Assembly (NCBI GenBank): GCA_903905455.1
Contig: CAIVGN010000067.1
Location: 1 to 54,582, forward strand
Direction of reading: 5' to 3'
DNA length: 54,582 nt
Origin: an uncultured Archangium sp.
Lineage (GTDB): Bacteria > Myxococcota > Myxococcia > Myxococcales > Myxococcaceae
Shown here: positions 41,209 through 53,636 of the stretch, one piece after another
How the letters are laid out: each line of letters begins with the position of its first letter
Position numbering within the stretch: position 1 is the first letter of the stretch
Notes under the pieces: generated by a model
Told to the model about the DNA's origin: nothing
Databases searched by the model: none
What the model saw: only the letters and a program-made list of their open reading frames with translations
Position numbers and translations under genes: made by a program

Positions 41209-41292
41209 GGCCCTCTGACGAAACTGGTAGACGTAGCGGACTCAAAATCCGCCGCCTTCACGGGCATCCCGGTTCGAGTCCGGGGAGGGCCA
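41209..41292 (+). tRNA. tRNA-Leu(CAA)
   Basis: 84 nt without an encoded CCA. The acceptor stem pairs GGCCCTC with GAGGGCC. The D-arm stem is ACG/CGT. The anticodon arm is GCGGA-CTCAAAA-TCCGC with anticodon CAA (reads UUG). A long variable arm as expected for tRNA-Leu follows, and the T-arm is CCCGG-TTCGAGT-CCGGG. Discriminator A at 41292. A T-run follows directly. It is the integration target of the island to its right. Confidence 0.93.
41258..41292. other. Candidate attL within the tRNA-Leu 3' end
   Basis: The 35 bp shared between the tRNA 3' half and the integrase 3' end are the expected core of the attachment site, because tyrosine recombinases typically use the T-arm and acceptor end of tRNAs. 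No second copy was found by eye to the right, so attR is probably beyond the window. Exact core boundaries are unknown. Confidence 0.6.
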
Positions 41293-42517
41293 CTGTTTTT
41301 GGGTAATGACTGCTGAGGGTTGCGGCGGCCGGTAGCAAAACGGTAGCAAATCCGCTCGCGGTGACCGCCGAAGTCCCCGGAATCACGACGATGGCCTCCC
41401 CGGTCTCCTGCTCGATTCTCAGCTTCAAGACCTCGCGGCAAACGACCTCCCACTCGTAGGTCGTGTAGCCCTCGATGACCTCTGTGGGCGGCTTGTGCGT
41501 GGCGCGCCGGAGGATGTCGGTCATCGCGCCCGCGGAGCGCGCGAGCGAGATGAAGGTCCTCCGCAGGTCGTGGCTGCGCCGGTGCCGGAGGCCCATCATC
41601 TTCAGGTCGTTTTCGAAGTGGTCGTAGACGTAGCCCTTGCGGCGCCACGGGCCGAACCTCGATGAAGTTCCCGGTACCCGAGGGACCACGAGGTCGTCGG
41701 GCGTCGGTTGCCGTCCCATCAACTGTGCCCAGCCGTGCAGCTTCCACTCGGCGAGCATGGTCGCGAGGGTGGGGTGGATGGGTACTGGGCGACAGACGTT
41801 GCCCTTCGGAAATGGGCGACCATACGAGAAGGCGACGAGGACCATGCCGAGTGGGGGGTGCTCGGGCTGCACGCCGCAGTTGCGCCAGAGGAGGCCCGAG
41901 ACCTCGCCCAGGCGGAGACCTGCAAGTGCTTCGAGCGCGTAGAAGACCCGTCGGTCCATCGGAATGCGGTCGTCGGAGATGAGCCTCCGAACTTCGGTGG
42001 TGGTGAACTGGGCCTTGGAGCGCCACTCAGGGTCCTTGTCGACCTTTGGCCCGAGTTGCCGTTTCTTGAGCATGCACGGGGTGCTGGTCAAGAGGTCGTC
42101 GAGGCAGGCGTCGCGAAAGAGCGCCGAGACGACGGAGTAGTCGCTGTAGATGGTTCGGGGGGCGAGCGTCCGCTTCCACTCGTTCACCATCGTGATGAGG
42201 TGGCGAGGGCGAACCTCGTCGAGCCGCATGTGTCCGATGGCCTTGAGGACGCGCAGGCGCAATGCCGACTCGTCGTTCTTCCACGTGATGACTTCACTGC
42301 GGCGCCGCTCCAGCCAGGTCTTCGCGAAGGCTGCGACCGTGACGGGACCACCAGGAACGATCTCGCCACCCGCGGTGCGGGTCCTCTCCATCTGCTCGAG
42401 CATCACGCCTGCTGCTCGTTCTTGGCCGACCTTGAAATCAGTCCTGAGGCCCTTCCACTTCTCCCCGATCTTGAGGCGGAAATAGAGGCGGCCGCCCTTT
42501 GCGTAGATGCTGCTCAT
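41258..42517 (-). CDS. Tyrosine recombinase (island integrase)
   Basis: 419 aa from the ATG at 42517 (GGAGAG ribosome site). Core-binding region about 60-150, catalytic domain about 170-370. Catalytic residues: Arg202 (LAGLRLGEV), His316 and Arg319 (SHDLRRTF), His341 (RRATHK) and Tyr351 or Tyr354 (GYTTYEW). The last ten residues (ALPGLEPGCP) are translated from the antisense of the tRNA-Leu 3' half, so integration restores or defines the integrase C-terminus. It converges on the tRNA. Overlaps the upstream HTH gene by 4 bp. Confidence 0.95.
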   Translation of the reverse strand: MSSIYAKGGRLYFRLKIGEKWKGLRTDFKVGQERAAGVMLEQMERTRTAGGEIVPGGPVTVAAFAKTWLERRRSEVITWKNDESALRLRVLKAIGHMRLDEVRPRHLITMVNEWKRTLAPRTIYSDYSVVSALFRDACLDDLLTSTPCMLKKRQLGPKVDKDPEWRSKAQFTTTEVRRLISDDRIPMDRRVFYALEALAGLRLGEVSGLLWRNCGVQPEHPPLGMVLVAFSYGRPFPKGNVCRPVPIHPTLATMLAEWKLHGWAQLMGRQPTPDDLVVPRVPGTSSRFGPWRRKGYVYDHFENDLKMMGLRHRRSHDLRRTFISLARSAGAMTDILRRATHKPPTEVIEGYTTYEWEVVCREVLKLRIEQETGEAIVVIPGTSAVTASGFATVLLPAAATLSSHYPKTVALPGLEPGCP

Positions 42518-43295: not shown

Positions 43296-43829
43296 TCAGC
43301 GCTCAGGTGGCTCAGCACTTTCGAGCCAGACGAGGGGCACCAGGAGCTGCTCCTGCGGCTCCCGCTGCGCCCCTGGCTGCCCGACTCGCGGCCGGTGCAG
43401 GCGCACGAGTCCGGTCGCGGCGTACTTGTAGTACCAGCCCTCTTGGCGCTGTGACGCGTGGGGGTCGGTGACGAAGGTGCCGGTACGCCCGCGCAGCTCC
43501 TCGGGGATGGGCATGCCCCAGTACGGTGTCTGCTCCGGCGGGTACAGCGCCTCGGTCCATTCGGGGTGGAGGAGCGGCGTCTCCCGCAGCCGCACGTACC
43601 TGGTGCGGATGCCGAGGCGTCGGAGCTCGTCGTAGTACTCGGGGCCGTGGACGTAGGCGACGGTGACCTTCACCCCGGCGTCGTTGATGGCGACCATCAC
43701 CCGGGAGCCGTCGGGCAGTCGCTTCATCTCGGCATGCGCGGGCACGTGGCTCAGGTCGTGCGTCGGCAGCAACTTTCCGTGCTCGGCGAGGACGAACGCC
43801 CAGTAGGAGTCGTGCTTGCGGGTGCTCAT
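43296..43829 (-). CDS. Hypothetical protein
   Basis: 177 aa from the ATG at 43829, preceded by a GGAGGGGG-type site. Soluble, with a stretch that looks beta-rich (SRVMVAINDAGVKVTVAYVHG) and Tyr/Arg-rich tail. No domain recognised. Overlaps the upstream receiver-like gene by 4 bp, so the two are probably co-expressed. Confidence 0.6.
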   Translation of the reverse strand: MSTRKHDSYWAFVLAEHGKLLPTHDLSHVPAHAEMKRLPDGSRVMVAINDAGVKVTVAYVHGPEYYDELRRLGIRTRYVRLRETPLLHPEWTEALYPPEQTPYWGMPIPEELRGRTGTFVTDPHASQRQEGWYYKYAATGLVRLHRPRVGQPGAQREPQEQLLVPLVWLESAEPPER

Positions 43830-44299
43830 GCCCCCTCCTCGGCGTCCTCGTCGAGCTCGGCGCGGCGGTCCTTCACCTTCTCGAGCCAGGCGATGAATCG
43901 GGAGGGCTCGGCGACCAGCTCGCTGAAGTGGATGCGGGTGACGTCGAAGCCGGCGCCCTTGAGGGAGTTCTCCATCACCGGCGCCATCTGGCTGTTCGCG
44001 CTGTGCACCAGGGCCGGGGTGGCCACGTCGACCTTGGCGATGATGGTGTCGACGACCCGACGGCCATCGGAGCGGAGGACCGCGCTCTCCGTGTAGAGGT
44101 CGTGGTCCAGAAGCAGCCCCGAGTGGGTGTCGGGAGCGTCCTTCTTCAGGAGGGTGATGGCGGCGATGCCCGTCTTCGCCCAGACCAGGTGGACGTCTGG
44201 GATGCAGGCGAGTTGCGCGGTGAACCACGCGTGGCGTCGCTGGTCGTCTTCCACCAGGAGAATGCGGGTGAACCTGCGGGGCTTGGGGCGACTCGGCAT
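43826..44299 (-). CDS. Receiver-like protein, cyclic-phosphate-processing type (cREC)
   Basis: 157 aa. The CheY-like fold is seen in ILLVEDDQRRHAWF (acidic triad 17-19), LLLDHDLYT and LVHSANSQMAPVMENSLKGAGFDV. The LDHDL and HSxN motifs match the cyclic-phosphate-processing receiver family rather than classical phosphoacceptor receivers. That family is proposed to act on cyclic phosphates in RNA-repair or defence contexts (established as a prediction). No partner histidine kinase is nearby. A different receiver-like function is possible. Confidence 0.65.
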   Translation of the reverse strand: MPSRPKPRRFTRILLVEDDQRRHAWFTAQLACIPDVHLVWAKTGIAAITLLKKDAPDTHSGLLLDHDLYTESAVLRSDGRRVVDTIIAKVDVATPALVHSANSQMAPVMENSLKGAGFDVTRIHFSELVAEPSRFIAWLEKVKDRRAELDEDAEEGA

Positions 44300-44993: not shown

Positions 44994-45623
44994 TCAGTAC
45001 CAGGCCGCGAAGCCGAAGCCCTTGGCACCCCAGTACCTGAGCCACTTCACGGCGGCCGTGATGTCGGTGCGCCCATGCCGGTGACGCTCACCGACGCCCA
45101 CGAGCGCTGCCTCGAGCCGGTCGGCGTAGTCGAGGCACTCTTCGCTTGAGTGGTCGTCGTAGGCCTCGTTCTTGAGCTCGTGGTCGATGCACTCGGCCTG
45201 CCCGACGACCTTTCCGCGGAAGTCGAGCGCCCCCGTCAACATGCCGGTGATGCTGGCCACGCCCTCCGGGTCCTTCGCGAGCTCGACGACGTACTTGCCG
45301 CACTCGTCCTGGACGACCGCCTCAAAGGCGCGGCGCCAGTAGGCGATGAATTGCGGGTTCTTCGACTGGGGGAGCTGCAGCTGAATGGGGACGTAGACCT
45401 CGCGCCGGAACCACGCGGTGGCGTCAGCGTCGATGCCGACCCGCGGCGCGCCGATGACGTCGTACGGCGACATCGAGACGGACTTGAGCGCCAGCTCGAG
45501 CTCGTCTCGTTCGTGCTCGCCAGCATCGGCGCCGAGCGCCGCCAGCTTGTTGTTGATGCGGTGGTACTGCTTCTCGTGGCCGGCCCTCGGCATGCGGCCG
45601 CGCAACATCCAGTCGAGGCCCAT
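44994..45623 (-). CDS. Hypothetical protein
   Basis: 209 aa from the ATG at 45623 with a GGAGAG site. Starts with MGLDW, a beginning shared by several phage and plasmid proteins I know. Mostly helical (KQYHRINNKLAALGADAGEHERDELELALK; ECLDYADRLEAALVGVGERH). First gene of a short minus-strand transcript, with the C-rich leader motif upstream. Function unknown. Confidence 0.6.
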   Translation of the reverse strand: MGLDWMLRGRMPRAGHEKQYHRINNKLAALGADAGEHERDELELALKSVSMSPYDVIGAPRVGIDADATAWFRREVYVPIQLQLPQSKNPQFIAYWRRAFEAVVQDECGKYVVELAKDPEGVASITGMLTGALDFRGKVVGQAECIDHELKNEAYDDHSSEECLDYADRLEAALVGVGERHRHGRTDITAAVKWLRYWGAKGFGFAAWY

Positions 45624-46638: not shown

Positions 46639-46950
46639 TCAGCGCTTCTTCTTCGTGGGCAACGGCGGGAGCACGACGTCCGGGTCATCTCCCTCGCCGC
46701 GAGGCAGCGCCTGGTTGTTGCGGTGCTCGAGGAGGCCCGCGTCGGCCGCGCCGATGACCACCTTCCGCAGGAGCCGCACCCGCCCCACGGCGAGGGCGAG
46801 CACGGACTCCAGCATCCTCGGTGCCCTCTTGACGGTGTCGTCATCGGGCAGGCCGCTGTTGACCAGCAGCTCCGCGATGAGCTGCGCGGACTCCAGGGTG
46901 TCGGCGATGGCAGCAAGCTCGGCGGCCAGGCTCACCTTCGTCGGGCGCAT
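46639..46950 (-). CDS. Hypothetical protein
   Basis: 103 aa from the ATG at 46950, GGAG at good spacing. Helical (LAAELAAIADTLESAQLIAELLV; ALAVGRVRLLRKVVIGAADAGLLEHR) with a Pro/Lys tail (PTKKKR). One base from the nuclease stop, so it belongs to the same operon. No domain recognised. Confidence 0.6.
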   Translation of the reverse strand: MRPTKVSLAAELAAIADTLESAQLIAELLVNSGLPDDDTVKRAPRMLESVLALAVGRVRLLRKVVIGAADAGLLEHRNNQALPRGEGDDPDVVLPPLPTKKKR

Positions 46951-46951
46951 G

Positions 46952-47755
46952 TCATCGCTCCGACTCGCACAGGGCCCGGTACGGGCAGCTCTTGCAGGCC
47001 CACCCGCGCACGGGGAAGGAGACCCCGGCGTCGATGGCCGTGAGCACGCCCAGCGCCGTCTTGAGGAAGTCCGACATGTCGCCGTCATCACGGCGGACGT
47101 CCTCGACCTGCACGGCCGGCACCTTCGTCTTCGTGGTGACCGAGAAACGCAGGCCGACCTCGCCCCACTTCAACTGCTCGGCGGCGAAGGCGTACCCAGA
47201 GAGCTGCGTGTCGAACACGAGCTGGTCGAGCGAGTACTTCTTGGCGCTCGTCTTGTGCTCGACCAGCACCCGGTGCCCCTCTTCCTCCAGCACGAGGTCG
47301 ATGACGCCCTTGAGCTTCTCGTCCAGCACCTCGCCCGACGTCGCGTCGTAGAGGTCCACGGTGAAGGGCACCTCGACGCCCAGCACCTTCGCTGGTTGCG
47401 CCGAGGGGTGCGTCAACGTGACGTCCAGCATCTGGAGCCCCTTCACCAGCGCGGCGTCGAAGCCCGTGCCGTCCTCGTCTTCCTGCAGGGGCACCGGGCC
47501 ATTCTTTGCCAGCGTCATCGCATCGACGAAGCGCTGCCTCACCTCATCGACGGGCGCCGGCTCGCCCCTCATCAGCCACTGGTAGTGGTGGGCCAGCGCC
47601 AGGTGGAACGCCGAACCGAAGGCCAGGGGCATCGGCACAAACGCCGGCTCCGCGCCGACGATGTACCGGTACTCGAACTTCTTCGGGCACATGAGCCACG
47701 CCTTCATCTGCGACACGCTGAAGTGCAGCGTGTCCTGCGCGACAGGGGCATTCAC
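46952..47755 (-). CDS. PD-(D/E)XK nuclease with Fe-S cluster motif
   Basis: 267 aa, GTG start overlapping the annealing-protein stop. RecB/Cas4/AddB-like exonuclease. N-terminal SVSQMKAWLMCPKKF (Cys23), active site GVID (Asp153), VEHK (Glu166, Lys168) and QLSGY (Gln184). The C-terminal C254-x2-C257-x5-C263 completes a four-Cys [4Fe-4S] layout typical of this group. It likely resects DNA ends for the adjacent annealing protein, as in RecE/RecT-type pairs. Confidence 0.9.
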   Translation of the reverse strand: MNAPVAQDTLHFSVSQMKAWLMCPKKFEYRYIVGAEPAFVPMPLAFGSAFHLALAHHYQWLMRGEPAPVDEVRQRFVDAMTLAKNGPVPLQEDEDGTGFDAALVKGLQMLDVTLTHPSAQPAKVLGVEVPFTVDLYDATSGEVLDEKLKGVIDLVLEEEGHRVLVEHKTSAKKYSLDQLVFDTQLSGYAFAAEQLKWGEVGLRFSVTTKTKVPAVQVEDVRRDDGDMSDFLKTALGVLTAIDAGVSFPVRGWACKSCPYRALCESER

Positions 47756-48552
47756 GACGCGAGGCTTTCGCTCGGCGAATCAGCGTGGAGCTGGGCGTCG
47801 AGGCTCTTGATGACCTGGCTCGCCTGCTCACGCGAGATGAACTCCACCTGTGCGCCGAACTGCGTCTTGACCCGCGAGCGCAGCGCCGACGGCTCGACCC
47901 CCAGCTTCCTGGAAATCGACATGATGGCCGCGAGCTGCTTCGAGCTGAGGCGGTTCCGCTCCGGCGGAGAGGGGCGGGTGTCGACGGCCGGCCCGGTGCG
48001 CACGTAACCGGGGGGCGTCTGCTGGGGCTGCGTCGCCGGCGGCTTCGGCGCCGACTGCACGGGCGCGGACTTCGGCGGCGCCGTGGCGAACGACGGGTCG
48101 ATCGGTTCGTTGTCTTCGTCGATCACTCCGGCGAACGCCTGCCAACCGCAGTTGAACATCGCGGCAGCCTTTTTTAGCCCGTTACTCGTCGCACCCTTGC
48201 GGGAATCGGCCTCAGACGAGTAGCTGATGTGCCCACCGTCGGCGACGGCCTCCGCGTAGGCCACGGCCGTGCCGTCCACCCACTCGACCAACTCGAGGAC
48301 GACGTCGGCGACACAACTCCAGCCCTTGCGGCCCGACTGAGTCGTGATCTCCGTGCAGGTGACTTCGCGGTGCAGGCGCCAACCCCCGAGCCCGCACACG
48401 GCGTTCAGCCTCATGATCACGTACATCACTTTGACGCCGGTCGTGTTGTAGCCGCGGCCTGTGGCGCGAGCCTCGGTCCTTTCGATCGCCTCCTCGGGAA
48501 AGGCGGCGCTGAGGTCCTGCAGCATCTGCTTCAACTTCGCTTCGTTGGGCAT
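47752..48552 (-). CDS. Rad52/Sak-like single-strand annealing protein
   Basis: 266 aa. The N-terminal ~140 residues resemble Rad52/Rad22-type annealing proteins (VKVMYVIMRLNAVCGLGGWRLHREV; EADSRKGATSNGLKKAAAMFNCG). A Pro-rich linker (about 155-195) leads to a C-terminal helical module (LSSKQLAAIMSISRKLGVEPSALRSRV), a frequent tail in phage Sak/Erf proteins. It probably promotes island or phage-like recombination together with the coupled nuclease. Ribosome site AAGGAG. Confidence 0.8.
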   Translation of the reverse strand: MPNEAKLKQMLQDLSAAFPEEAIERTEARATGRGYNTTGVKVMYVIMRLNAVCGLGGWRLHREVTCTEITTQSGRKGWSCVADVVLELVEWVDGTAVAYAEAVADGGHISYSSEADSRKGATSNGLKKAAAMFNCGWQAFAGVIDEDNEPIDPSFATAPPKSAPVQSAPKPPATQPQQTPPGYVRTGPAVDTRPSPPERNRLSSKQLAAIMSISRKLGVEPSALRSRVKTQFGAQVEFISREQASQVIKSLDAQLHADSPSESLAS

Positions 48553-48581
48553 GACTTCTCCTTGCTGCGTTGAAACGACGA

Positions 48582-48614
48582 AGCCCCCGCTCCGCGGGAT
48601 GCGGGGCGAGGGCT
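48582..48614 (-). terminator. Terminator-like hairpin upstream of the annealing gene
   Basis: A 14-bp stem with one mismatch and one G-U pair around GGGAT lies between the 31-aa gene and the annealing gene. On the minus strand a short T-rich stretch follows. It may end the RavA-ViaA transcript or attenuate read-through into the recombination genes. Confidence 0.5.
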
Positions 48615-48647
48615 CGGTCGGTGATGCGGTGAAGTTGAGCTGCTGCT

Positions 48648-48743
48648 TTAGCGCCGCTTCGGCGCCGACTTCTTCGCGCAGTAGGCCTCAGCTGCGCCGA
48701 TGGCGATGGTGACCAACGTCTTCAAGACGGTCTTCCAGAACAT
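48648..48743 (-). CDS. 31-aa micro-protein
   Basis: Too short for routine calling. ATG at 48743, TAA at 48648, with an excellent GGAAGG ribosome site 8 nt upstream and 16 bp after the viaA-like stop. The peptide is hydrophobic or amphipathic at the N-terminus (MFWKTVLKTLVTIAIGAAEA) and strongly basic at the C-terminus (CAKKSAPKRR), which suggests membrane association. It would be the third gene of the RavA-ViaA unit. Function unknown. Confidence 0.55.
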   Translation of the reverse strand: MFWKTVLKTLVTIAIGAAEAYCAKKSAPKRR

Positions 48744-48759
48744 GGTGGTGGCCTTCCAA

Positions 48760-50022
48760 CTAGATGGTGAAGAGCGCCTCGGCCGCGGTGTCGTCCACCG
48801 TGTCGAGACGCGTGATGGCGTGGGCGTCGTCGCACCAGGGCTTCAGCGACTCCGCTGATACGCCGATGCCCACGCCCAGAAGCGTTACGCGGAGTTGCGC
48901 TGCGAACTGCCTGATGACGGGAGCGTCCTGCGTCTCGCTCTCTCCGTCGGTGATGAGCACCACGTCGGCGGCCTTCATACCCCCGGTGCTCGTCTGGATG
49001 ATGGACATCGCCCGGGACAGCGCGCCGGTGATGTTGGTGCCGCCGCTGCATGCGGTGAACAGCGTCTCCTCGGGGAGCTGCCCGCCCACTTCGACGATGT
49101 CCTGCCGCTTCACGTCGCCGTCGAAGGCCACCAGCGCAAACGGCCTTCGCTGCCGCTGCGCTACGTCGAGCAGCGCCAGCGCCACCGCAGTCGCCCAGAT
49201 GTCGCTCGTGCCTTCCATGCTGCCCGACTTGTCGATGCACACGATGAGACTGCCTCGCCCCAGGCTGTCGGTGCCGGAGAGCCGGTACTGCATGACCTTG
49301 CCCTCGGTGAGGCGGGCCAAGAAGGCGCGTCTCATCAACGGGTGGCCGAGCTGCGCCAACTCGGAGGGGAGGACCCTCGACAGGTTCGACCCGAGCTCGA
49401 CGTCGCTCACTTCGTCGGCGCCGTGGCGCACCTTCGCCTTCTGCTTCGCGGCGGCGATGCGCTTGAACTTCCCCGCGAGAAGCGCGATGCGGGAGAGCCG
49501 CTCGTCCCGCTTGAGGCGCTGGCTGAGCCGACGGGCCTGGGCGCCCGAGGTCTTCGTGTGCTGCCCCGCGCCCGAGCCGAAGCCCACGCCCGCGAGACCG
49601 TCCATCGTCTCGCGCTGCTGGTCCACGGCTTCCGACGCCTTGTCGCAGGCGCGGTTGAGGGCACGGCGGAGCTGGGGCGGCTGCACCTCGTCCGACTTCT
49701 GCTTGAGGTGCGGCCCGAGGGCCTCCATGAGCTTCTCGGTCGCCGTGCCTGCGGCGTCGGCGTCCCCGAGGCACTCGTGCGCGAGCCTGTTGAAGTTCGG
49801 CAGCTCGGCGGTGATGCCGTGGAGCTTCTCGGCCCAGGAGGTCAGCTCGGCCGAGGTGTCCGGCTTCACCGCCTTCTCCGACTCGCCCGAGTACAGCTTG
49901 TCGAAGAGCTCATCCTCGAGCTTCCTCACCGGCGTATCGTCCTTGTCGACGGTGGGCAGCTCACGCGCGTCCCGGTGGAGGTACACGTGCCACCGGGGAA
50001 CGTCGTTCACGAGGCGCAACAC
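48760..50022 (-). CDS. viaA: ViaA-like VWA protein
   Basis: 420 aa from the GTG at 50022, preceded by GGGGAG and 2 bp after the ravA-like stop. The N-terminal half is helical. The segment SRVLPSELAQLGHPLMRRAFLARL followed by KVMQYRL resembles the region before the VWA domain of E. coli ViaA. The VWA MIDAS is D264-x-S266-x-S268 (DKSGSM), with GGTNITGAL and LITDGES supplying the other ligands. ViaA works with RavA, in E. coli linked to respiratory complexes and aminoglycoside sensitivity. Its presence on an island is unusual. Confidence 0.82.
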   Translation of the reverse strand: MLRLVNDVPRWHVYLHRDARELPTVDKDDTPVRKLEDELFDKLYSGESEKAVKPDTSAELTSWAEKLHGITAELPNFNRLAHECLGDADAAGTATEKLMEALGPHLKQKSDEVQPPQLRRALNRACDKASEAVDQQRETMDGLAGVGFGSGAGQHTKTSGAQARRLSQRLKRDERLSRIALLAGKFKRIAAAKQKAKVRHGADEVSDVELGSNLSRVLPSELAQLGHPLMRRAFLARLTEGKVMQYRLSGTDSLGRGSLIVCIDKSGSMEGTSDIWATAVALALLDVAQRQRRPFALVAFDGDVKRQDIVEVGGQLPEETLFTACSGGTNITGALSRAMSIIQTSTGGMKAADVVLITDGESETQDAPVIRQFAAQLRVTLLGVGIGVSAESLKPWCDDAHAITRLDTVDDTAAEALFTI

Positions 50023-50024
50023 GG

Positions 50025-51164
50025 TCAGCTCCCCGTGCGGCGCAGGCCCAGCCCGGTCGAGACGGTCCGGGCCAGGTCCTCGTGGAGGCTTCGGATGTCG
50101 GCCAGGGACGCCTCGATGGTGGCCTTCGCCCGTCGGCCGGCGGACTTCTCCAACTTCTCGAGCTTGGTGACCTGCTGCTGGTACTGGTCTAGCCCCTGGG
50201 CGCAAGCGGCGATGTACATCTTGCGGTCCCCGCTCTTTTGCCCCGCGATCTTCAGGGCGATCTCGTTGGCCGCGTCCATCACCTCCGCCGCCTGAACTGA
50301 CGCCGGGTCAGCGAGCTGGCCCACCAGCTTGGCCACCTTCGCTCGCTCCTTCGGTTCTCGCCAGAGCGCGTCCACCAGCAGGGTGAGGTCCTCGGGGGTG
50401 GTCTGCTTCTCGCCCGCCATCCAGGCCGTCGCCTGCACCAGTCGCAGCGACTTCTTCCAGCGGCGGTCGCTGGCGATGATGCCCTCGGCCTTCAGGGCGT
50501 CGCGCACCGCGATGAGGGCGTCCACCGTGGCGTCGGTGAGCTTCACCTTCTGGACCTCCGCCTGCGCCGCGCGAAGGGTCTTCATGTCGAGGACGTTGGT
50601 GAGCTTGGGCTCCGACGCCACCAGCACGTCCTTCAGGTTCTGCGGCCGGAGCAGGTAGTCGACCTGGAAGCGCAGCGCGAAGCGGTCGAACAGCGCCTCG
50701 AGCTCCTTGCCCTCGGGCAGCTCGTTGCTGGCGCCGAACATGGCCACGAGGGGCACCGGCAGGGGCGCGCCACCGTTGCTGTAGGTCCGCTCGTTGATGA
50801 GCGTGAGCATCGAGTTGAGGATGGCGCTGTTGGCCTTGAACACCTCGTCGACGAACGCGAACTCGGCGGTGGGCAGCATGCCGGTGGTGACGCGGGTGAA
50901 CTTGTCCTGCTCGAGCCCCTTCAGGCTGACCGGCCCGAACAGCTCCTCGGGGGTGCTGAACTTCGTGAGCAGACGCTCGAAGTACGAGCCGCCGAACGCC
51001 TGGGCGAGGGCGCGCACCAAGGCCGACTTGGCGGTGCCCGGCGGGCCGACGAGCAGGACGTGCTCTCCGGCGAGAACAGCAGCGAGCGAGCCGTCGATGA
51101 CGCTGGCTCGCTCGGGGAAACGGGACATGAGCTCCGCCCTGAGGGCGGCGAAGGTCTTCTGCAT
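50025..51164 (-). CDS. ravA: RavA-like MoxR AAA+ ATPase
   Basis: 379 aa from the ATG at 51164 (AAGGAG upstream). Walker A GPPGTAKS (40-47), KFSTPEELFGPVSLKGL, Walker B FAFVDE (102-107), LNSMLTLINER, sensor-1 GASNELPEG and the SDRRWKKSLRLVQATAWMAG segment match E. coli RavA closely. It is shorter than the ~498-aa E. coli protein: the C-terminal ~100 residues are a coiled coil instead of the known triple-helical and LARA domains. It heads a minus-strand run with viaA and the recombination genes. Confidence 0.88.
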   Translation of the reverse strand: MQKTFAALRAELMSRFPERASVIDGSLAAVLAGEHVLLVGPPGTAKSALVRALAQAFGGSYFERLLTKFSTPEELFGPVSLKGLEQDKFTRVTTGMLPTAEFAFVDEVFKANSAILNSMLTLINERTYSNGGAPLPVPLVAMFGASNELPEGKELEALFDRFALRFQVDYLLRPQNLKDVLVASEPKLTNVLDMKTLRAAQAEVQKVKLTDATVDALIAVRDALKAEGIIASDRRWKKSLRLVQATAWMAGEKQTTPEDLTLLVDALWREPKERAKVAKLVGQLADPASVQAAEVMDAANEIALKIAGQKSGDRKMYIAACAQGLDQYQQQVTKLEKLEKSAGRRAKATIEASLADIRSLHEDLARTVSTGLGLRRTGS

Positions 51165-51953: not shown

Positions 51954-52835
51954 TTACGCCGCATGCTTCGCGTTGAGCAGCGACTCGATGGACGACGCCA
52001 GCTGGTCGAGCGAGGTGTCCAGGTCCTTCACCTGGACACTCAAGACGGAGCGATACAACTCGGCCCGTCCGCGCAGCGCGTCGAAGGCGTCAAAGCGCCG
52101 CACCAGGGTGCTGGTGCGCTCCGGCGGTGAGGCGAGGAACGACTCCACCTCGGCCTTGAGCTCCGCCAGGTCGGTCTCCAGGCTCTTCGTAGCGGCATCC
52201 CCGAGGGTGCGGCTGGCGTCGGGGCCGTCGTGCACCGGCAGCAGGTACAGCTTGCTGTGGCCGATGCCCTCGATGCACCCCTGCAACCGGCGCAGCTTCT
52301 CCGCGTTGGGCGCGGGCACGTACCAGATGGCGCCCGAGTCGCGCAGGAGCACCGCCGAGAAGCTCTGCAGCGTCTTGGTGATGGTGCGCCTGATGTCGTC
52401 GGCGGTGTGCGTGTCCTTGAGCGCCGTGAAGCGCGTCTGGACGGCCGTCACCAGGTCGTGGGTGGGGGCGTCGGTGTTGATGGCGCCGGTCAACAAGTCG
52501 AGGCCAACGCGTGCCTCCTGCGTATAGACCAGCGTGCCGTCGGCATGACGGGCCTCGTGCACGATGGCGAACACCACGCTCGCCTCGTCATCCACGGCGA
52601 CGCGGATGAGCCTGTCGGTGAGCCCGGTCTGCGTCTCGCGCACCGCCAACTTGAAGCTCTTGATGACGGTGGGGGGCTCCGGCAGCAGCTCCATCGGCAG
52701 CTGCGCGGCCTTCCACTTCGACTCAAGGTCGCTACGGCTGGTGCTGGCCTCCGCGAGCATCCAGAAGACGATGTCGCCAAGGTGAGCGCCGCCCTTGGCC
52801 AGGACGGCGGTGAGGTTCTGCATCGTTGCATTCAC
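51954..52835 (-). CDS. DUF6744-like hypothetical protein
   Basis: 293 aa from a GTG at 52835, chosen because AAAGG precedes it and its leader matches that of the 153-aa gene. An ATG at 52823 is the alternative. The order of segments (PPTVIKSFKLAVRET, RLIRVAVDDEASVVFAIVHE, a middle helical part, then SGAIWYVPAPNAEKLRRLQGCIEGIG) resembles a phage and actinobacterial family I know as DUF6744. The match is from memory. Function unknown. Confidence 0.65.
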   Translation of the reverse strand: MNATMQNLTAVLAKGGAHLGDIVFWMLAEASTSRSDLESKWKAAQLPMELLPEPPTVIKSFKLAVRETQTGLTDRLIRVAVDDEASVVFAIVHEARHADGTLVYTQEARVGLDLLTGAINTDAPTHDLVTAVQTRFTALKDTHTADDIRRTITKTLQSFSAVLLRDSGAIWYVPAPNAEKLRRLQGCIEGIGHSKLYLLPVHDGPDASRTLGDAATKSLETDLAELKAEVESFLASPPERTSTLVRRFDAFDALRGRAELYRSVLSVQVKDLDTSLDQLASSIESLLNAKHAA

Positions 52836-53174: not shown

Positions 53175-53636
53175 TCAGCTGGGGGCGCTGGCCTGCTCTT
53201 CAGCCCAGCTGGCGGTGTCGATGAACTTGATGCCTTTCGCGGTCACGAAGGCCGCGCCGCCACCAAATTCGCCGGGTCTCATTTTACTGCACGTGAAGGC
53301 CCAGGAGAACGAGAGCGAGCCGGTCGGCTGGAACCGCTCGAGGTACTGCTGCAGGAAGGCCGCGACGAGTTCCGGGTTGCCGCTCTCTTCCGCGTAGATG
53401 TGCATCTCGGTGGCCGAGCAGAACCACTCGAAGTCGATGAAGTCGTAGCCCTCGGACATCACGACGTGGCCGAGGTCGCCGAGCTCCTTCGCGAGCTGGG
53501 TCTTCTCGTCGGGGTCGCCGTCGGCGCTGCACTCGAGCAGGTCGGTCAGCGCCGTCATGGTCTTCTCGCACCACTGCTGCTCGGCGCGGGTCTTCAACGG
53601 GAAGGAGAGGGCGAACTGCAGGTAGTTGTTGGCCAT
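53175..53636 (-). CDS. Conserved mobile-element hypothetical protein
   Basis: 153 aa from the ATG at 53636, preceded by AGAGG. Begins MANNYLQFALSFPLK and ends with a Gly-rich FTCSKMRPGEFGGGAAFVTAKGIKFIDT block. I recognise this pattern from plasmid, phage and island proteins without known function. Acidic, soluble. It is the first minus-strand gene of the visible island block. Confidence 0.65.
   Translation of the reverse strand: MANNYLQFALSFPLKTRAEQQWCEKTMTALTDLLECSADGDPDEKTQLAKELGDLGHVVMSEGYDFIDFEWFCSATEMHIYAEESGNPELVAAFLQQYLERFQPTGSLSFSWAFTCSKMRPGEFGGGAAFVTAKGIKFIDTASWAEEQASAPS

Follow-up and report, generated by a model that had tools for sequence, protein, structure and literature searches.

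The locus analysed here raises the question which task a RavA-ViaA-like gene pair has on a mobile island, and whether a tiny gene next to it belongs to the same unit. What is known of MoxR-VWA machines comes for the most part from assembly processes and the metabolism of hosts. In a preliminary description of this DNA a RavA-like protein, a ViaA-like partner and a peptide gene were taken together as one unit on an island, possibly a conflict or chaperone system. All three reading frames were found within the range given for them (48648-51164), on the minus strand. The window, i.e. the whole stretch of DNA which was analysed, is the complete contig G000:C67 (54,582 bp) of an 8.6-Mb draft genome in 251 contigs, and its nearest relatives were found within the Myxococcota records. 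The data used for comparison are draft genomes and MAGs, for which the gene calls of the neighbours are crude.

All called genes from a tRNA-Leu gene (41209-41293) to the end of the contig are encoded on the minus strand. The 3' end of this tRNA-Leu(CAA), which was assigned by ARAGORN to the plus strand (41209..41293), overlaps the 3' end of a tyrosine integrase gene (41258..42517, minus strand; Phage_int_SAM_3 4.6e-7, PHROG 1 integrase 1.4e-30). Since the integrase reading frame enters the tRNA 3' end (41258-41293), the attachment site probably lies within the integrase gene. Integrative mobile elements are marked by an integrase gene adjoining the 3' end of an RNA gene, and this feature bears out the assumed mobility of the island. 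A second copy of the element in the source genome, on contig C242, is cut within the VWA gene and has its own integrase adjoining a tmRNA gene. The window itself holds one end of a mobile element which has integrated at a tRNA gene. The contig stops inside this element, 1 kb beyond the last core gene, and therefore the cargo region of the window's own copy is located off the contig. Neither terminase, portal, capsid nor tail genes were found in the visible 13 kb of the element, nor were any recognised among the searched proteins of its relative MY1. Genes for a relaxase and a coupling protein, both present in the Anaeromyxobacter form described below, were likewise not found in the visible 13 kb.

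We also looked for further traces of integration. No att direct repeats were found at tRNAs near the relatives of the element. On another contig of the source genome (G000:C106:98079-98106, L022) 28 bp of the tRNA-Leu 3' end occur again next to a degenerate integrase C-terminus. This copy was rejected as the missing end of the island, because its neighbours are the degenerate integrase fragment and host-like genes, and is the relic of a related element.

The smaller genes of the element, all on the minus strand, encode a 177-aa protein (43296..43829; a gene call with no Pfam match at E<1e-5), a 157-aa protein (43826..44299; PF20274, 7.9e-9), a 209-aa protein (44994..45623) which is found in C242 and VK1538 at 53-67% identity, a 103-aa protein 3' of the exonuclease gene (46639..46950) which is conserved in seven loci, and a 153-aa protein (53175..53636) also present in VK1538 and G009. 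PF20274 is the cREC cyclic-phosphate processing receiver domain, and this protein is kept in the element relative VK1538 with 49% identity.

The MoxR/RavA-type AAA+ ATPase (379 aa; 50025..51164, minus strand, ATG at 51164, stop at 50025) matches PF20030 (bpMoxR, 1e-58) and PHROG 19600 (ATPase, 7.7e-75). Its residues 7-273 align to E. coli RavA (5e-54), and Walker A/B, sensor and arginine finger of this core are intact. Nothing aligns beyond residue 273 of 379, and therefore the protein has neither the LARA domain nor the C-terminal triple-helical part of RavA; its approximately 106 C-terminal residues have no sequence relation to RavA. The source genome encodes another strong bpMoxR protein (G000:C142:54293-54871, 205 bits), without a VWA gene of the window type nearby. 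In one further locus, L097 (G044:C49), a partial second MoxR-VWA pair follows in tandem behind the first pair.

The VWA gene (420 aa; 48760..50022, minus strand) starts with GTG at 50022, 2 nt past the MoxR stop. The protein matches Pfam VWA_2 and VWA_CoxE as well as PHROG 24053 of unknown function (4.3e-38), and its MIDAS residues (DKSGS...T...D) are intact. With E. coli RavA-ViaA the pair shares the MoxR AAA+ core adjoining a VWA partner and, according to a low-confidence model, a helical N-terminal region ahead of the VWA domain. In contrast to the E. coli system the LARA domain is missing, and so is the C-terminal helix of ViaA, which is arginine-rich, amphipathic and binds lipids (PMC9489729). 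In the window protein and in its close relatives the C-terminus (in the window ...VDDTAAEALFTI) follows directly after the VWA domain, and no such helix was found in any of them. A DUF6744 partner and the mobile setting are additional differences. A RavA-like protein with a differing C-terminus and a ViaA-like VWA partner were thus correctly recognised in the preliminary description.

The third member, a DUF6744 protein (51954..52823, minus strand; PF20529, 7.2e-20), was not part of the unit as originally proposed. Its gene adjoins MoxR-VWA in about 20 of 195 Myxococcota genomes. In the high-scoring VWA loci of these 195 genomes the MoxR gene is located directly 5', and in all but a few of them the DUF6744 gene lies 0.5-2 kb further upstream. 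The conserved unit is therefore DUF6744-MoxR-VWA, with a fixed order in Myxococcota and in viral contigs. In the window it is followed by the micro-ORF, a strong hairpin and the genes for a Rad52-type annealase and an exonuclease. The idea of one unit of MoxR, VWA and micro-ORF holds as far as these genes are adjacent, but the conserved unit includes DUF6744 and the micro-ORF is not specific to the pair. DUF6744 is not mentioned in the open-access literature searched. The AlphaFold models of the DUF6744 and VWA proteins are of low confidence (pLDDT 57-58), and were discarded as queries for structure searches as too weak.

The recombination genes beside the trio, which had also been noted before, encode a Rad52/22-type single-strand annealing protein (47752..48552, minus strand; PF04098, 2e-8) and a PD-(D/E)XK exonuclease (46952..47755, minus strand; PF12705 6.7e-28, PHROG exonuclease 3.3e-25). 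A survey with the annealase profile revealed 19 places in the 195 Myxococcota genomes, one of them broken. The annealase occurs without MoxR-VWA as well as MoxR-VWA without the annealase, and a direct link between them was not found. In locus L109 (G009) a 356-aa gene between exonuclease and DUF6744 looks by eye like a DNA polymerase III beta clamp, which recalls the clamp gene adjoining MoxR-VWA in phage CL131.

The micro-ORF (48648..48743, minus strand, ATG at 48743, stop at 48648) starts 16 nt past the VWA stop and encodes a product of 31 aa, MFWKTVLKTLVTIAIGAAEAYCAKKSAPKRR, with a hydrophobic stretch and a basic tail. Its ribosome site, GGAAGG, precedes the ATG by about 8 nt and is good but not exceptional. 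No match was found in Pfam, PHROG or PADLOC. The micro-ORFs of the survey have 30-42 residues, a ribosome site and a hydrophobic stretch, the basic tail being usual but not constant. When the thresholds were chosen the first five loci were already known, and because the criterion was tuned on these loci the following numbers are to be read as a contrast and not as an exact probability. A micro-ORF is located at the VWA stop in all 12 MoxR-VWA elements carrying the annealase/exonuclease, and at none of the 13 MoxR-VWA loci without a recognised annealase/exonuclease. In total, 17 of the 18 intact annealase loci of the 195 genomes have it, compared to one of 450 other gene ends used as a control, and that single case lies 3' of an exonuclease gene in an annealase element. 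The micro-ORF is therefore a genuine gene beyond chance, as had been claimed. Lack of recurrence in other genomes, together with a missing phenotype, had been named beforehand as the outcome that would speak against the proposal; both the micro-ORF and its neighbourhood clearly recur among the 195 Myxococcota genomes.

The sole intact annealase locus without a micro-ORF is L163 (G196:C80). There a RadC-like fragment (MIVLHNHPSG...), which lies 5' of the annealase at a distance of about 240 nt, takes the position expected for the micro-ORF. One copy in G196 carries a homologue of the G021 micro-ORF peptide. A clear constraint was seen in the codon comparison of C242 with MY1 (pN 0.11, pS 0.33), and in that pair only. 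L109 (G009:C1) and L165 (G009:C24) both have another conserved ORF for a microprotein 3' of the exonuclease gene, MKKKLVRLFLGLLHLAGKLAFVLLAGWITGR and MKMKLVRLLLGLLHLAGKVAFVLLAGWITGR, respectively.

In three intact annealase loci a DUF932 gene takes the place of MoxR-VWA, and the micro-ORF is still found upstream of the annealase. Two of the three DUF932 proteins match the family with 6e-54 and 6e-41; the proteins of the G054 and G035 loci are near identical by eye. Therefore the micro-ORF belongs to the annealase element and not to MoxR-VWA. The reverse case is given by conjugative elements and viral contigs, in which MoxR-VWA-DUF6744 lacks the micro-ORF, so that the micro-ORF is no pair-specific partner either. 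We also considered that the microprotein supplies the basic membrane helix of ViaA in trans. This was rejected, because the micro-ORF and MoxR-VWA each occur without the other.

The micro-ORF is separated from the annealase gene by a strong GC-rich RNA hairpin (48574..48618, minus strand; -33.7 kcal/mol, z -5.1), which was missed in the preliminary description. The same hairpin is present in C242, VK1538 and MY1, and strong hairpins occupy the equivalent position in L160 and L161. All six loci that were folded show such a structure 3' of the micro-ORF, with z values of -3.3 to -5.7 over different stretches. Most simply, it is likely the terminator of the upstream unit.

The DUF6744-MoxR-VWA unit is not restricted to elements of the window type. 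In elements of genomes which we assign to Anaeromyxobacter, the name being inferred from their kinship with the L011 record, it occurs with ParB and RadC genes and without annealase-exonuclease and micro-ORF. Members of this group encode a TrwC relaxase, a TrwB coupling protein and a TraC-like ATPase, and judged by these genes they are conjugative-element-like. A scan of IMG/VR with the MoxR profile revealed 18 viral contigs, all of which have the VWA gene and 14 of which have DUF6744; single-sequence scans of viral contigs and a scan with the VWA profile gave no matches. A micro-ORF 3' of the VWA gene was absent from the 18 contigs. Moorella phage MTATph1 combines DUF6744-MoxR-VWA with terminase, portal and tail genes, and its trio is located near genes for a ribonucleotide reductase and a Holliday junction resolvase; an annealase-like match there is weak. 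The micro-ORF candidate of this phage overlaps an antitoxin gene and was discounted. In Aphanizomenon phage CL131 the gene 3' of MoxR-VWA encodes the sliding clamp of a DNA polymerase III. The recognised families among 104 neighbours surveyed from 15 viral contigs belong mainly to DNA metabolism: exonuclease in four, Sak4-like annealase in three, polymerases, clamp loader, thymidylate synthase and dCMP deaminase, besides one terminase.

Virus-borne AAA+/MoxR-VWA pairs have been described before. In the Acidianus two-tailed virus (ATV) p618 (MoxR) binds the VWA protein p892 and a role in tail development was assigned to it (PMC4124505), while the AAA-vWA pair of the halovirus Hardycor1 is located in a replication/accessory region (PMC7911831). 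Both belong to another lineage, and DUF6744 was not reported for them. MoxR-vWA ternary conflict systems, according to their authors chiefly of multicellular prokaryotes, were described by Kaur et al. 2020 (PMC7159879), and VMAP-type units occur near CRISPR loci (PMC10910872). The unit of the window resembles the former in having a PF20030 MoxR gene adjoining a VWA gene and a third protein. However, by Pfam the third protein is DUF6744 instead of VMAP, a beta-propeller or FtsH, effector modules are missing, and the unit sits in the backbones of phages and mobile elements.

Known defence genes were identified in all seven relatives with readable flanks. MY1 carries a type I RM system, Gabija (GajB 762 bits) and GmrSD, VK1538 a type I RM system, and so does G059, where the proteins cluster with HsdM and HsdR of MY1. 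In the Anaero element DpdA/DpdC, HerA-like and GajB-like proteins are encoded, in G108 HmaA/HmaC and Lamassu LmuB, in G158 DpdE-, DrmMI- and DruE-like proteins, and in G159 BREX BrxC. A control of 37 host proteins gave few kinds of matches, namely to PD-T4-6-type kinase and RtcR-type activator models, among the families shown. PADLOC matches to the PD-T4-6 kinase were discounted as cargo, as a host kinase scores equally. The trio is constant in the backbone, and the defence systems vary between the relatives. Defence-carrying integrative elements and phage satellites share the integrase at a tRNA or tmRNA gene and the defence cargo of the relatives, but the backbone here consists of DUF6744-MoxR-VWA, the microprotein, the Rad52-type annealase and the exonuclease. 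No description of an element family with a DUF6744-MoxR-VWA-annealase backbone was found in the open-access literature.

How is the trio then to be explained? We favour a role in the DNA life cycle of the element, because the copies of MoxR-VWA in phages are found among genes for replication and recombination; that DUF6744-MoxR-VWA is an early AAA+ module for establishment, replication or recombination of the DNA of mobile elements has in our judgement an even chance of being right. A replication-region neighbourhood is compatible with any early gene, counter-defence included. MoxR and VWA would form a RavA-ViaA-type machine, in which a MoxR hexamer may supply ATP-driven remodelling, the MIDAS site of VWA may recruit the target and DUF6744 could be an adaptor or a substrate. 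The trio would act early after entry or induction of the element or phage, on a host or element complex on DNA related to replication, recombination or restriction. It is improbable that the annealase itself is this target, as the trio occurs with and without it. The conflict part of the earlier proposal draws support indirectly, and only from the defence systems in the relatives of the island. These systems beside the unit, the described ternary systems and the VMAP-type units near CRISPR loci would fit a stand-alone conflict or defence system against competitors in the sense of Kaur et al. 2020. This is less supported than the DNA module and rather improbable, since neither an effector, nuclease or toxin domain nor a known third component was found, the trio is fixed while the defence systems differ, and the phage copies sit among replication genes. 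An assembly chaperone for virions or a transfer machine, suggested by the binding of p618 to p892 and by MTATph1 being a tailed phage, is very unlikely: apart from one terminase the families listed for the viral neighbours include no recognised morphogenesis family, and the similar pair of Hardycor1 lies in a replication/accessory region. We give hardly any credit to a true RavA-ViaA orthologue carried as cargo, with respiratory or membrane complexes of the host as its targets; the AAA+ core does align to RavA, but the LARA domain and the basic helix of ViaA are both absent, the partner DUF6744 is constant, and the unit is spread on mobile elements.

The microprotein may be a small, probably membrane-associated accessory of annealase-exonuclease elements, which would be made from the end of an upstream early operon, of the MoxR-VWA or the DUF932 type alike. 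Its short hydrophobic helix with basic tail, its own ribosome site and its one to two copies per element would also suit a toxin, an addiction factor or a lysis-type membrane peptide. We consider that unlikely, as no antitoxin or antisense partner and no match in the three databases was found, and such a sequence fits many roles. Even less probable is a leader peptide which regulates the annealase operon via the downstream hairpin. The hairpin is indeed found between micro-ORF and annealase in all six loci folded, but in G108 the annealase is 3.7 kb away with opposite-strand genes in between, an HNH-like gene separates micro-ORF and annealase in Anaero, and neither of the G009 copies has an annealase 3' of the micro-ORF. 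Furthermore, the hairpin of the window begins about 30 nt past the stop, as a plain terminator would.

Phages, conjugative elements and defence-carrying islands all have the trio, so that it probably acts on something which every invading DNA has to handle, and DUF6744-MoxR-VWA is apparently a standard working part of such mobile elements and of some phages. We tentatively suggest, as a possibility which is still rather doubtful as a whole, that myxobacterial integrative elements of a family not yet described carry defence systems from host to host with a dedicated DNA-processing machine, comprising a RavA-ViaA-like ATPase together with DUF6744, an annealase of the Rad52 type and its exonuclease, and a conserved membrane microprotein of 30-42 residues that would be obligate for the annealase machine. 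For annealase-exonuclease elements the microprotein is a new component which can be tested, and further defence-carrying elements may be found with the backbone genes as a marker.
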